Shown here piece by piece: positions 7,684 to 16,168 of a DNA stretch of 46,430 nt. Position 1 is the stretch's first letter, and every line of letters begins with the position of its first letter. This stretch comes from Patescibacteria group bacterium (GTDB lineage: Bacteria; Patescibacteriota; Patescibacteriia; Magasanikbacterales; UBA922): assembly GCA_018823045.1 (NCBI GenBank), contig JAHJIX010000012.1, forward strand, positions 1 through 46,430. The letters are read 5' to 3'. A program made the translations under genes and the position numbers. The notes beneath the pieces are model-generated. The model was not told the origin of the DNA, searched no databases, and saw only the letters and a program-made list of their open reading frames with translations.

Positions 7684-7702
7684 CCTTATCCACAAAAGTC
7701 TG

Positions 7703-7731
7703 TTGACGAACTAATACATTATTGCTAATCT
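7703..7731 (+). promoter_or_regulatory. promoter of attenuator cassette A
   Basis: TTGACG, a 17-nt spacer, then TAATCT. The predicted transcription start near 7738 is within two bases of the leader-peptide ATG at 7740, so the leader ORF would be essentially leaderless. Confidence 0.7.
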
Positions 7732-7739
7732 AAATACGT

Positions 7740-7808
7740 ATGAATTACACAAAACAAAACAATTCAGTCGTGATTGGCCTCTTTATTATTAAGTCTCCAA
7801 ACTGGTGA
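7740..7808 (+). CDS. leader peptide A (22 aa) of the attenuator cassette
   Basis: A short ORF that starts MNYTKQNN, continues SVVIGLFIIK and ends SPNW-stop. The Gln-Asn-Asn codons (7755-7763) form the 5' arm of helix 1:2. The UGA stop (7806-7808) lies inside the 5' arm of the antiterminator. Cassette B has a leader at the equivalent position beginning MKYMQNN and ending HPNR-stop. The Val-Val-Ile-Gly-Leu-Phe-Ile-Ile run would be the control codons if charging is sensed. Support is positional and comparative within this window; translation is inferred. Confidence 0.65.
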   Translation: MNYTKQNNSVVIGLFIIKSPNW

Positions 7809-7864
7809 GTTGTTTTGATGTAATATAAAAATACAGAAAATAACCACCGGGAGGTGGATTTTTT
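7755..7864 (+). promoter_or_regulatory. transcription attenuator A: helices 1:2, 2:3 and terminator 3:4
   Basis: Helix 1:2 pairs CAAAACAATTC (7755-7765) with GAGTTGTTTTG (7807-7817), 11 bp with one G-U. Antiterminator 2:3 pairs CTGGTG-(A)-GTTGTTTT (7802-7816) with AAAATAACCACCGG (7837-7850), 14 bp with A7808 bulged. Terminator 3:4 pairs CCACC (7844-7848) with GGTGG (7853-7857) around GGGA, then six T. The helices are mutually exclusive. Expected logic: stalling in the middle of the leader ORF frees segment 2 and allows read-through. A ribosome at the stop codon, or no translation, favours termination. Confidence 0.75.
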
Positions 7865-7908
7865 AATACTCTATATTTTGGAGTGTTGTATTGATTGTTC
7901 TTTACAAA

Positions 7909-7961
7909 GACGTTGTTACTGCTAAGTGTTTACCTGATGAATATTTGGTGGTAATAACGTC
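7909..7961 (+). promoter_or_regulatory. long perfect hairpin A upstream of the ATP-grasp gene
   Basis: An uninterrupted 24-bp stem (arms 7909-7932 and 7938-7961, several G-U pairs) with loop CCTGA. It is preceded by the 15-mer ATTGTTCTTTACAAA (7894-7908) and followed 12 nt later by the Shine-Dalgarno AAAGGAG. The equivalent hairpin in cassette B differs by paired substitutions, so the fold rather than the primary sequence appears to be selected. Confidence 0.8.
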
Positions 7962-10599: not shown

Positions 10600-10615
10600 T
10601 TATCCACACAATATT

Positions 10616-10644
10616 TTGACAAATCTTTATTTCTTTTATAGGAT
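10616..10644 (+). promoter_or_regulatory. promoter of attenuator cassette B
   Basis: TTGACA, a 17-nt spacer, then TAGGAT. The predicted start near 10651 is two bases before the leader B ATG at 10653, the same arrangement as cassette A. Confidence 0.6.
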
Positions 10645-10652
10645 ATAAGTAT

Positions 10653-10709
10653 ATGAAATACATGCAAAACAACTTTTTCTTTTTTTTCTTTATCCACCCA
10701 AACCGGTGA
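10653..10709 (+). CDS. leader peptide B (18 aa) with six consecutive Phe codons
   Basis: The ORF reads MKYMQNN, then six Phe, then IHPNR-stop. The Phe run occupies codons 8-13 (10674-10691). The peptide resembles known Phe-sensing attenuator leaders such as the enterobacterial pheA leader in style, not by homology. The Gln-Asn-Asn codons form segment 1, and the UGA stop (10707-10709) lies within segment 2, exactly as in leader A. The -PN-(W/R)-stop ending is shared; the changed Trp/Arg codon (TGG/CGG) keeps base pairing with segment 3. Confidence 0.7.
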   Translation: MKYMQNNFFFFFFIHPNR

Positions 10710-10766
10710 GTTGTTTTGATGTATTTATAAAAAGATATCAATTTGGCCACCGGGGGGTGGTTTTTT
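10665..10766 (+). promoter_or_regulatory. transcription attenuator B: helices 1:2, 2:3 and terminator 3:4
   Basis: Helix 1:2 pairs CAAAACAACTT (10665-10675) with GAGTTGTTTTG (10708-10718). Antiterminator 2:3 starts with CCGGTG (10703-10708) pairing CACCGG (10748-10753). It continues through GTTG with a bulged A, then a 2x2 internal loop, then TTGATGT pairing ATATCAA (about 17 bp in all). Terminator 3:4 pairs CCACC (10747-10751) with GGTGG (10756-10760) around GGGG, followed by six T. Segment positions, the stop-codon overlap and the sequence CCAAACYGGTGAGTTGTTTT (20 nt) are conserved with attenuator A. Confidence 0.78.
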
Positions 10767-10791
10767 GATTACTGTATTGTTCTTTACAAAA

Positions 10792-10844
10792 GAAGTTACT
10801 ACCATGAAGTATTTTGTCTCAGAATATTTTATGGTAGTAATTTC
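10792..10844 (+). promoter_or_regulatory. long perfect hairpin B upstream of the GCS2-like gene
   Basis: An uninterrupted 25-bp stem (arms 10792-10816 and 10820-10844, three G-U pairs) with a three-base loop TCT. The same 15-mer as in cassette A (10776-10790) precedes it. The GAGGT Shine-Dalgarno begins 16 nt after the stem. Shared core with hairpin A: AAGTRTTT in the 5' arm and GAATATTT in the 3' arm. Confidence 0.8.
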
Positions 10845-11694: not shown

Positions 11695-11709
11695 ACTAAG
11701 GAGAAGAAC

Positions 11710-11741
11710 CAAAAACAGATCTTTGATCTGTTTTTGGGGAC
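11710..11741 (+). terminator. terminator after the GCS2-like gene
   Basis: A perfect 13-bp stem (AAAAACAGATC / GATCTGTTTTT plus flanking CC/GG) with loop TTT; the T5 of the 3' arm serves as the U-tract. Confidence 0.75.
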
Positions 11742-11789
11742 AGGTATTGTTCATTCGTCCCTTGTAAAAGGGCACATAAGGAGGTCATT

Positions 11790-11894
11790 ATGGCCAAAAA
11801 GGGTAAGCAAGATCCGGGGAAGAGTCGTCAAGAGCTCCTGGCGGAGTTCGCTCGTCGAGCCCTCAAAGAGGGGTGTCGGCCGAATGGCTTCTAG
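11790..11894 (+). CDS. 34-aa basic small protein with a near-perfect Shine-Dalgarno
   Basis: Reads MAKKGKQDPGKSRQELLAEF, then a basic helix, then one Cys and the ending CRPNGF. AAGGAGGT lies 7 nt before the ATG and is one of the best matches to the 16S anti-Shine-Dalgarno in the window, so translation is very likely. No family is recognised. It stands between the terminator of the GCS2-like gene and a second terminator just before uvrD. It could be a functional microprotein, a peptide substrate of the nearby ligases, or an attenuator leader for uvrD. Codon composition is GC-richer than uvrD. Confidence 0.6.
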   Translation: MAKKGKQDPGKSRQELLAEFARRALKEGCRPNGF

Positions 11895-11925
11895 CCATAT
11901 CTTCGCCTCATAGGCCATCAAAGCC

Positions 11926-11950
11926 CTTCACCTCGAAGGGCTTTTTTGCT
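11926..11950 (+). terminator. intrinsic terminator immediately upstream of uvrD
   Basis: GCCCTTC and GAAGGGC form a perfect stem around ACCTC, followed by six T. It ends about 15 nt before the uvrD ATG, so uvrD expression depends on read-through or on a promoter overlapping TATTATAGAT at 11950-11959. Confidence 0.85.
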
Positions 11951-14065: not shown

Positions 14066-14545
14066 ATGAAATTTGAAGGCATTTATGAGAAAACATTTCT
14101 CATCGTAAAACCAGATGGTGTTCAACGTGGACTCGTTGGTGAAGTAATTCGCCGTTTAGAGCTTAAGGGCTTAAAAATTGCAGGATTAAAAATGATGACA
14201 CTTGATGAAAATAAATTACGTGAACATTATGCACACTTGGTAGAAAAACCATTTTACCCAGGGCTTGAAGGATTTATGAAATCAAATCCAGTAGTAGCAT
14301 TATGTGTTGAAGGAAAAGGTGCTGTAGATGCTGTGCGTTTAATCGCTGGTATTACTCATGCTGGACAAGCAGATGGAGGTACCATTCGTGGTGATTTAGC
14401 TATGGGTATGTGTAATGTTGTCCATTGTTCTGATTCTTTAGAAAATGCAAAAGCTGAAGTGGGTCGCTTTTTTTCTGAAGATGAGGTGTTTGAATATGAC
14501 AAAACAGATTATCTTCATGTGTATATGGATGATGAGCGTGAATAA
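14066..14545 (+). CDS. ndk: nucleoside diphosphate kinase
   Basis: Transfers the gamma phosphate from NTPs to NDPs through a phosphohistidine; 159 aa. Signatures: KTFLIVKPDGVQRGLVGE at the N-terminus, TIRGDLAMG, and the active-site NVVHCSDSLENA, where most bacterial enzymes have HGSDS (Gly to Cys beside the catalytic His). A short N-terminal MKFEGIYE extension is present. Start 14066 is chosen because the upstream in-frame codons run through the TATAAT promoter. Confidence 0.95.
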   Translation: MKFEGIYEKTFLIVKPDGVQRGLVGEVIRRLELKGLKIAGLKMMTLDENKLREHYAHLVEKPFYPGLEGFMKSNPVVALCVEGKGAVDAVRLIAGITHAGQADGGTIRGDLAMGMCNVVHCSDSLENAKAEVGRFFSEDEVFEYDKTDYLHVYMDDERE

Positions 14546-14740: not shown

Positions 14741-14769
14741 TTGACGAATTGTTAATGTTCTAGTACAGT
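14741..14769 (+). promoter_or_regulatory. promoter of cassette C
   Basis: TTGACG, a 17-nt spacer, then TACAGT; the predicted start is about 32 nt before the leader ORF ATG. Confidence 0.7.
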
Positions 14770-14807
14770 AAAACAAGTGGGGTAATTGCCCTCAAAAAAA
14801 TAATAGT

Positions 14808-14975
14808 ATGAATACTGCTTCATTGCATACAATTTCTCGTACTAGCTGCATTCTCTTTGATATGTGGAATGTTGTGGTGTCTGTAGATTATACAGCCCTT
14901 ATTCCAGCAAAGATGGAGGCCTTACGAGAAAAAGACAATGGAGGAGTATGTTGTAGCAAATCGTGCAACAACTAA
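14808..14975 (+). CDS. putative 55-aa Cys-ending leader ORF of cassette C
   Basis: Starts MNTASLHTISRTSCILF and ends NGGVCCSKSCNN-stop. Two adjacent Cys codons (14952-14957) and a third (14964-14966) lie just ahead of an antiterminator/terminator pair, as expected for Cys-codon attenuation. Alternatively it is a small precursor peptide with a Gly-Gly and a Cys-rich core, since two ligase genes lie nearby. No Shine-Dalgarno is present. A second frame also opens an 18-codon ORF (MEEYVVANRATTKSKKIL) from 14938, so coding status is uncertain. Confidence 0.4.
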   Translation: MNTASLHTISRTSCILFDMWNVVVSVDYTALIPAKMEALREKDNGGVCCSKSCNN

Positions 14976-15025
14976 GTCAAAAAAAATCTTGTAAGGCCAC
15001 CTAAATGATTAGGTGGTTTTTATTT
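14915..15025 (+). promoter_or_regulatory. attenuator C: 14-bp antiterminator and terminator
   Basis: GGAGGCCTTACGAGA (14915-14929) pairs with TCTTGTAAGGCCACC (14987-15001), 14 pairs with one A-A mismatch, occluding the 5' arm of the terminator. The terminator pairs CCACCTAA (14997-15004) with TTAGGTGG (15009-15016), followed by TTTTTATTTG. The Cys-codon region and a small internal hairpin (GTTGTAGCA with TGCAACAAC) lie in the antiterminator loop. Confidence 0.6.
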
Positions 15026-15046
15026 GTTCTTTATAACATCATATGG

Positions 15047-15098
15047 TCGGAGTATCCGCTTTGGAGAAGAATATTCTTCTTTAGTGTGGATATTCCGA
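15047..15098 (+). promoter_or_regulatory. long hairpin C
   Basis: A near-perfect stem of about 23 bp (one T-T mismatch) closes on AATATT. It follows TTTGTTCTTTA (15023-15033), similar to the 15-mer of cassettes A and B. AAAGGGGG and an ATG (15111) follow, but that ORF is only five codons (MLMQG, stop at 15126-15128). Confidence 0.65.
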
Positions 15099-15110
15099 AA
15101 GGGGGTTCTC

Positions 15111-15171
15111 ATGTTGATGCAGGGCTAGTGCCCACTCATAAGGGGCATTTTGCCCTGCCAACGGTTTTTTT
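15111..15171 (+). promoter_or_regulatory. mini-ORF and alternative-hairpin switch
   Basis: Mini-ORF MLMQG (15111-15128) runs into GCAGGGC (15119-15125), which pairs with GCCCTGC (15152-15158). GGGCA (15143-15147) can pair either with TGCCC at 15129-15133 or with TGCCC at 15151-15155. A seven-T run follows at 15164. This looks like a second tandem attenuator upstream of the zinc-ribbon gene. Confidence 0.45.
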
Positions 15172-15191
15172 ACTGCTATTTTCCGTCTCAA

Positions 15192-15248
15192 AAAATAGCC
15201 TGTCCATATGGGTAGTAATGAATAGTATCTATGTGGGCAGGTTATTTT
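15192..15248 (+). promoter_or_regulatory. long perfect hairpin D upstream of the zinc-ribbon gene
   Basis: A 23-bp uninterrupted stem (arms 15192-15214 and 15226-15248, some G-U) with an 11-nt loop. The Shine-Dalgarno AAAGGA and the ATG at 15268 follow, the same hairpin, Shine-Dalgarno, start order as in cassettes A and B. Confidence 0.7.
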
Positions 15249-15267
15249 AACAAAAAAGGACAAGATA

Positions 15268-15495
15268 ATGGCTAAAACAAAAACATGTAAAGAATGTGGT
15301 ACTCGCATTAAGCGTTGTCATGGCGACAAATGCCCAAGGTGCAATGTGCATCGTCGTGATTCACGTCCTCCACAAGCTTCTCTGCCTGAGGAATCAGGTC
15401 CTGATCGAGTTATGAATGAGGGACTGATGCGTCTGCTCGGCGTGATTCCTCCGAAAAAACAATCAACGCGCAAGGAAAGAAAGCAAAGAAAGTAA
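15268..15495 (+). CDS. small basic zinc-ribbon-like protein
   Basis: 75 aa. The N-terminal third has CKECG (C7-x2-C10), an intervening KRCHGDK, and CPRCN (C22-x2-C25), the spacing of a small zinc ribbon. The middle is Pro/Ser-rich, and the C-terminus is strongly basic (KKQSTRKERKQRK), suggesting nucleic-acid or ribosome binding. No family recognised. AAAAGGA lies about 8 nt before the ATG. It is the first real ORF after the complex cassette C leader, so its expression is probably attenuated in response to translation. Confidence 0.65.
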   Translation: MAKTKTCKECGTRIKRCHGDKCPRCNVHRRDSRPPQASLPEESGPDRVMNEGLMRLLGVIPPKKQSTRKERKQRK

Positions 15496-15963: not shown

Positions 15964-16131
15964 TATTACAAAAGGTACCCTAATGAAAGACTACCTTTTG
16001 TTGACTCATGCACAGTGTATCTATACCCCTAATAAATAGGTGGGTCACCGCAACGCTATTCCAAAAGAATATCGCAATGTTGGCGTCCCTTTGGTATATT
16101 TGACGGATATGATACATCTGTATGGATGAAT
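15964..16131 (-). ncRNA. candidate structured minus-strand RNA or long leader
   Basis: A strong minus-strand promoter (16139-16168) fires into this ORF-poor stretch although the next gene has its own promoter. The predicted RNA contains a hairpin from about 16038 to 16085 closing on TTTTG. A 9-bp hairpin CAAAAGGTA / TACCTTTTG (about 15968-16000) could end it, but without a clear U-run. It is either a small RNA or a long 5' leader of the hypothetical gene. No known RNA family signature (SRP, 6S, tmRNA) is seen. Confidence 0.3.
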
Positions 16132-16138
16132 CTCTTTT

Positions 16139-16168
16139 AGTATATCGTATTATGATAGGATCTGTCAA
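16139..16168 (-). promoter_or_regulatory. strong minus-strand promoter downstream of rpmB
   Basis: On the minus strand, TTGACA, an 18-nt spacer, then TATACT. The -35 box abuts the rpmB terminator T-run. Confidence 0.65.

Follow-up and report, generated by a model that had tools for sequence, protein, structure and literature searches.

In a member of the Magasanikbacteria, the position of a ribosome on a short leader ORF most likely decides whether transcription reads through into the gene for a small protein. We call the region with the leader ORF cassette C. It lies in a genome of 1.16 Mb whose close relatives belong to Candidatus Magasanikbacteria in the Candidate Phyla Radiation (CPR); the window, which is the whole stretch of DNA that we analyzed, is contig 10 of this genome (46,430 nt). 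Our full account is that cassette C is a ribosome-dependent transcription attenuator and that the decoding of a leader tail of Cys, Gly, Glu, and Asp codons is the likeliest signal. We give this account a probability of roughly 0.7. Comparisons between genomes lend good support to a transcription attenuator that overlaps the leader ORF, and it is highly probable that this attenuator is coupled to the ORF. We see somewhat less than an even chance that cysteine codons or Cys-tRNA are themselves the signal.

Anatomy of cassette C

The genes around cassette C are, in order, a uvrD-like helicase, ndk (14066–14545), cassette C itself, a zinc-ribbon-like ORF, a probable 6S RNA gene on the minus strand, L28, an M50 peptidase, rpsL, rpsG, and fusA. 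(The names of the uvrD-like helicase, rpsL, rpsG, and fusA, though not of L28, were read off the translations.) An earlier note on this DNA had described a promoter, a 55-codon ORF ending in GGVCCSKSCNN, an antiterminator, and a terminator, and all four are present where it had placed them (Table 1).

Table 1. Features of cassette C and its sister cassettes. Positions are in the window unless another contig is given.
Feature	Position	Strand	Details
DnaA-box-like TGTGGATAA	14727–14735	+	5 bp upstream of the -35
Promoter TTGACG-17-TACAGT	14741–14769	+	9/12 matches; weak alone
Leader ORF	ATG 14808 to TAA 14975	+	55 codons, ends GGVCCSKSCNN; C-terminal tail EKDNGGVCCSKSCNN
Antiterminator 5' arm (arm 2)	14915–14929	+	Inside leader ORF; covariation
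Cys codons 48, 49, 53 (TGT TGT ... TGC)	14949–14966	+	The first is 19 nt past arm 2
Antiterminator 3' arm (arm 3)	14987–15001	+	Overlaps terminator 5' arm; starts 11 nt past the stop codon
Intrinsic terminator AAGGCCACCTAA-ATGA-TTAGGTGGTTTT	14993–15020	+	12 pairs, 4-nt loop, T-rich tail
BoxA-like GTTCTTTA	15026–15033	+	Directly past the terminator; common after terminators of relatives
Three strong hairpins between attenuator and gene	15047–15250	+	15021–15267 folds 10.4 sd below shuffles
Candidate regulated gene	15268–15495	+	75 aa, zinc-ribbon-like Cys spacing; DZR match E 0.014, weak, below cut-off
Cassette A	7686–7910		TTATCCACA, TTGACG promoter, leader MNYTKQNNSVVIGLFIIKSPNW, stop at arm 2, terminator AACCACCGGGAGGTGGATTTTTT, boxA-like TTGTTCTTTACAAA, ATP-grasp/PGM1_C ligase gene
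Cassette B	10600–10804		TTATCCACA, TTGACA promoter, leader MKYMQNNFFFFFFIHPNR (six Phe codons), terminator GGCCACCGGGGGGTGGTTTTTT, TTGTTCTTTACAAA, carboxylate-amine ligase (GCS2) gene
Cassette D	L271, G000:C15, about 126600	-	Leader MNIVLTQLVSKKEKKLSPAG, terminator, operon with diaminopimelate-epimerase-like gene

The weak score of this single promoter is offset by the recurrence of its spacing and hexamer type: all 22 related loci have TTGAC or TTTAC, a spacer of 17 or 18 bp, and a -10 of the form T....T. The combination of the DnaA-box-like element with TTGAC occurs just once in the window and in none of 100 shuffles. The leader's ATG is 38 nt after the -10, with a predicted 5' UTR of about 30 nt; this ORF is not leaderless, and there is no Shine-Dalgarno sequence upstream of it. 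An internal Shine-Dalgarno sequence (GGAGG) in the tail was ruled out, as it is missing from several related leaders.

The antiterminator had been described as 14 bp. Its positions and pairing are real, but the helix has 15 columns (87% complementary), with 13 Watson-Crick pairs, one G.U, and one A.A mismatch, rather than 14 clean pairs. It had also been said to cover the terminator arm fully; the overlap is real, but the wording is slightly too strong, because arm 3 covers 14993–15001 of the terminator's 5' arm at 14993–15004 (9 of 12 nt). Three Cys codons, which start at 14949, 14952, and 14964, fall within the last eight codons of the ORF. Compared with dinucleotide shuffles, the leader RNA folds 4.5 sd lower. 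If the codons of the whole ORF are shuffled, then 1.3% of 300 shuffles match the observed pairing of the arms, and none of 400 do so if only the codons past codon 12 are shuffled. Because the fold is strong, we considered a structured noncoding RNA such as 6S RNA, and we rejected this candidate: no Rfam covariance model matched the leader above the gathering cut-off, and the 6S-like gene is separate and downstream.

Related leaders beside ndk

Outside the genus, DNA similarity is gone, so we used synteny with ndk and protein profiles. (A DNA-level search for relatives of the leader gave nothing beyond one promoter match; DNA conservation is almost nil.) We first looked at the DNA that follows ndk in 27 genomes whose ndk match was good, and protein profile searches came next. 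The resulting family has 17 members (G000, G001, G002, G006, G012, G013, G014, G018, G021, G022, G024, G026, G027, G031, G032, G034, and G066), which are the window genome and 16 others, and these were picked without regard to the RNA arms or the DnaA-box-like element. In the 16 other genomes, the locus usually adjoins ndk. A leader profile built from eight members detected five further members at the homologous locus (E from 3.5e-11 to 6e-4), and a scan of ndk in the named genomes gave few further leaders. Searching with the boxA-like motif alone turned up an extra Cys-tail member in G007 (GVFYSNCGEGACGC, with arms GGGTGTTTTACTC/GAGTAAAAAGCACCC). The profile had no match in 28 of 46 family genomes, and several ndk-bearing relatives (G003, G016, G017, and others) have no module beside ndk, so the module is common rather than universal, or else some versions escape the profile.

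In all 17 members, the ORF is open and ends before the terminator. Tails with cysteine, mostly rich in Gly, Glu, and Asp, are present in 15 of them (for example, leaders ending in GMVYQGGDEENCCGGGGCGCGGKGNC or GVIYSEDEGCNGGCGCGDECNCDE). The leaders of G012 (ending in TKAKYAYI) and G006 (ending in SVSAS) are at the same locus and have the RNA arms, which are weak in G006, and lack a Cys tail. In other families (G039, G071, G073, G075, and G037), shorter leaders have the same RNA logic and no Cys/Gly tail.

The antiterminator covaries with the terminator

In nearly all members, a segment of the ORF pairs with the 5' arm of the terminator (the pairing is weak in G021, G026, and G006). This segment often encodes G-V-x-Y and is complementary to the genome's own terminator arm, while its letters differ from genome to genome: examples are GGGGTGTTGTATG/CATACAACACCCC, AGGGTGGTTTTACA/TGTAAAACCACCCT, and AGGATGGTTTACTT/AAGTAAACCATCCT, and the window has GGAGGCCTTACGAGA/TCTTGTAAGGCCACC. 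The window and G001 retain the pairing although G-V-x-Y is lost or altered, so the protein motif does not account for the constraint on the RNA.

When arms were swapped among the 17 members, the true total was 469.5 versus 321.0 for swapped arms (sd 18.4, maximum 412), and none of 50,000 swaps reached it. With 22 members, the true total was never reached in 20,000 swaps. We also counted pairs in an alignment of 15 members. For this alignment, G021 and G006 were left out, and each pair of arms was trimmed out of its best ungapped helix and connected through an artificial linker. Here, 83.8% of cells were paired, versus 38–47% with slid partners. Two-sided changes were found at 11 of 14 base pairs and in 48 cells, versus 17.9 cells in shuffles (0 of 500). 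Because of the trimming, the linker, and the two omissions, the swap test is the cleaner evidence.

Overall, the predicted antiterminator and terminator are mutually exclusive, with covariation, and sequence evolution supports both the competing helices and the ORF. The earlier note had asked whether the helices are kept in relatives, and they persist with covariation across genomes. It had also set loss of the reading frame against loss of the helices: no member has a destroyed frame and the helices persist, which favors an ORF together with an attenuator.

The leader tail and the cysteine question

Across 15 members, the tails are 26% Gly, 23% Cys, 13% Glu, and 10% Asp, as compared to 4%, 2%, 1%, and 2% for the rest of the ORFs. 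Each tail has 2–6 cysteines in relatives, and tail Cys codons are split between TGT (33) and TGC (28). The tail keeps its composition across members while its order and length vary, a pattern that seems to fit selection on codon content better than selection for a fixed binding motif.

The tail Cys codons lie 3' of arm 2, although in G014 the first Cys is inside arm 2; the first tail Cys is 14–37 nt past arm 2 in 12 of 15 members. We found no shared upstream arm 1 among the members that would sequester arm 2. The idea of a classical attenuator therefore stands in part: covariation argues for the attenuator and the protein profile for the ORF, but there is no shared arm 1 and the Cys codons come past arm 2. 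Similarly, Cys codons had been placed in the control position. Their conservation holds for 15 of 17 members, but they are 3' of arm 2, and such a tail is missing from two relatives at the same locus (G012 and G006) and from the five loci of other families. Since related switches lack cysteines, cysteine is just one candidate signal.

A proposed mechanism

We infer the following, including that the leader is translated, in which direction the switch responds, and to what. RNA polymerase would start past the promoter and then transcribe the leader ORF. If arm 2 pairs with arm 3, the terminator would not form and transcription would go on into the small gene that starts at 15268. This pairing would be blocked, and the terminator would form, if a ribosome were on arm 2 as arm 3 emerges. 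If the ribosome instead pauses on the Cys codons, which begin about 19 nt beyond arm 2, it would occupy the antiterminator loop, both arms would stay free, and read-through should follow. Because the Cys-paused ribosome would leave both arms free, slow decoding of the Cys (plus Gly/Glu/Asp) tail is probably the likeliest signal in this genome.

We modeled the folding of a transcript whose arm 3 has just emerged, with equilibrium folding and a fixed ribosome footprint and with kinetics ignored. The antiterminator formed (P of at least 0.9) in 11 of 15 members when the ribosome was placed on the first tail Cys; with a ribosome on arm 2, it never formed; and without a ribosome, it formed in most members. 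For the window, the modeled P was 1.00 with the ribosome at the first Cys, 0.00 with the ribosome at the stop codon, and 0.85 with no ribosome; these modeled values fit the expectation that a shortage of cysteine would give read-through. A modeled Cys stall gave no antiterminator in G014, G022, G066, and G032, and the block by a ribosome at the stop codon, seen for the window, was absent in several relatives. As the antiterminator forms in most members without any ribosome, the anatomy does not fix the cause of termination.

Alternative explanations

The attenuator could be real and yet sense translation generally (stalling, inhibitors, or ribosome supply) rather than cysteine, with the tail serving another purpose, for example, so that the spacer between the arms stays hydrophilic and has little structure. 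This is a serious alternative that we do not consider probable. The leaders of relatives end differently under the same architecture, and so do those of the sister cassettes (with SPNW, HPNR, and SPAG directly before the stop); also, leaderless starts are predicted for some loci (see below) and the downstream genes have no evident tie to cysteine supply. However, the enrichment of cysteine is too strong and too recurrent for neutrality, and the six consecutive Phe codons in cassette B resemble amino-acid control codons.

It is unlikely that the leader ORF encodes a functional peptide that binds metals or takes part in redox chemistry, with an attenuator that just regulates the neighboring gene. 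The head of the ORF is rich in V, L, I, and F and is conserved enough to be detected by a profile, the tail is rich in C, G, E, and D, and tails such as CCGGGGCGCGGKGNC do resemble metal binders, but the order and length of the tail are scrambled within one genus (FDGENCGCSGNC in G014, FGGDDESCCGGGCSCGSNG in G034), the tail is missing at some homologous loci, and the ORF matches no Pfam or NCBIfam family. More improbable still is that the terminator merely ends the ORF's own transcript and that the arms are complementary just because a terminator motif is repeated. Arm 2 does resemble the 3' arm of the terminator, but this likeness follows each genome's own terminator (0 of 50,000 swaps), and there is no plus-strand promoter match between 15020 and the gene at 15268. 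The earlier note had offered another alternative: nearby ligases would make a modified peptide with the Gly-Gly-Cys tail as its core, and ATP-grasp/PGM1_C and carboxylate-amine ligase genes do lie 4–7 kb upstream. This now has very little in its favor: each of these ligase genes sits behind an attenuator cassette of its own; among 58 other genomes, just 2 have the carboxylate-amine ligase gene, at different loci and with 25–27% identity, whereas the leader is found in many; the tails keep composition and not sequence; and in the relatives that we inspected, no ligase or other modifying-enzyme gene adjoins the leader.

Sister cassettes in the same genome

The layout that we interpret as a ribosome-dependent attenuator recurs three times in this genome with other leader peptides, twice in the window and once on another contig (Table 1). 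Reading the arms of these three cassettes by eye puts the stop codon within arm 2 or right at it; a ribosome that terminates there would mask arm 2, as in trp. In contrast, the ORF of cassette C continues past arm 2 through the Cys tail. The leader codons are not conserved together with the GCS2 gene of cassette B, for a GCS2 relative in G012 (L296) comes with a leader of its own (MNQFRVNNSWWKARLSG).

Comparison with known systems

In the trp and his attenuators, the control codons lie 5' of the first antiterminator arm. Cassette C shares with the leader-peptide attenuators of trp, his, phe, and ilv a short leader ORF, mutually exclusive antiterminator and terminator, and enrichment of particular codons. 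It differs from the trp/his type in that the enriched codons are 3' of the antiterminator's first arm, so that a paused ribosome would sit in the antiterminator loop, and in having no shared arm 1. A tail that runs past the arm is a layout unlike trp/his. Also, unlike in amino-acid attenuators, the gene downstream of cassette C does not look like a biosynthetic operon for the amino acid of the tail. We found no report of leader-peptide attenuators in the CPR in the literature that we searched. CPR bacteria scavenge most of their building blocks, so a translation-coupled switch, if widespread, would show host or nutrient sensing with very few regulators.

Mycobacteria have polycysteine short ORFs that are leaderless (Canestrari et al. 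2020, doi 10.1111/mmi.14498, as described in PMC9094748 and PMC13236596). As they are described there, these share with cassette C a short ORF with Cys codons near its stop, before a regulated gene; the leaderless start is shared by the loci for which it is predicted here and not by the window ORF. The mycobacterial cys leaders are reported to have no conserved terminator hairpins (PMC1262725), whereas cassette C has a covarying antiterminator and an intrinsic terminator. Leaders of the ermC type are described as sensing slowed translation (PMC2965389), which would suit loci whose leader codons vary. However, ermC controls translation, while cassette C would act on transcription termination. 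We know of no link to drugs for leaders of the cassette C type. For the his operon of E. coli, attenuation by DnaA bound to the leader RNA has been proposed (PMC10989985). The likeness is in DnaA boxes near a leader-peptide attenuator; here, the box is in the DNA just upstream of the -35 and is also found before many other promoters.

Promoters and untranslated regions

The DnaA-box-like element, a few bp upstream of the -35, is exact in 13 of the 17 members and has near variants in the other four; of the 22 related loci, nearly all carry it. In 10 of the 22 related loci, the start codon is just 6–10 nt after the -10, so leaderless mRNAs are predicted there. The DnaA-box-like element followed by TTGAC is enriched genome-wide: 70 of 95 genomes match, and a reversed control pattern gives zero matches in nearly every genome. 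In this order, the strong enrichment of TGTGGATAA with TTGAC may indicate a regulon or a clade-specific promoter element. TGTGGATAA also precedes TTGAC promoters of apparent hrcA, greA, and lexA homologues (L275, L280, and L061).

Past the terminator, a boxA-like site is common in relatives; hairpins come next, and then a small ORF whose ribosome-binding site is good. In the predicted fold of this part of the window, TTGTTCTTT (near 15024) pairs with AAAGGACAA, where the gene that starts at 15268 has its ribosome-binding site, and this could be a second layer of control. The earlier note had pointed to zinc-ribbon cysteines in the downstream protein. The spacing is zinc-ribbon-like here, but this is not general: zinc-ribbon-like proteins are found at five loci, and the downstream small ORFs are otherwise mostly unrelated to each other. 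We rejected the rule that a Cys leader goes with a zinc-ribbon gene, given that one of the five zinc ribbons follows a leader without cysteine and most other downstream genes are unrelated.

It is possible, though doubtful, that the Magasanikbacteria and their relatives have a family of attenuators that sense ribosome pauses in the antiterminator loop on tails of the Glu/Cys/Gly type. Its unit would be a DnaA-box promoter, an often leaderless ORF, an attenuator, a boxA-like site, and strong hairpins before quickly changing small proteins, and thiol or amino-acid supply (perhaps replication state) would gate expression.

Some other features of these genomes are worth recording. TTGTTCTTTACAAA is also found near the start of other transcripts (L297, L299, and L300), where hairpins and a ribosome-binding site follow it; the 5' UTRs of this order seem to be built in this way generally. 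The probable 6S RNA gene (about 16000–16168, minus strand) is close to the small ORF; relatives at the same position (L094 and L097) score 36 and 32 bits against RF00013, below the cut-off of 46.4. Finally, a tiny ORF that begins with MAKKGKQDPGKSRQELLAEFARRALKEGCRPNGF, at 11700–11940 of the window, comes with a strong ribosome-binding site and with a terminator-like hairpin of its own.
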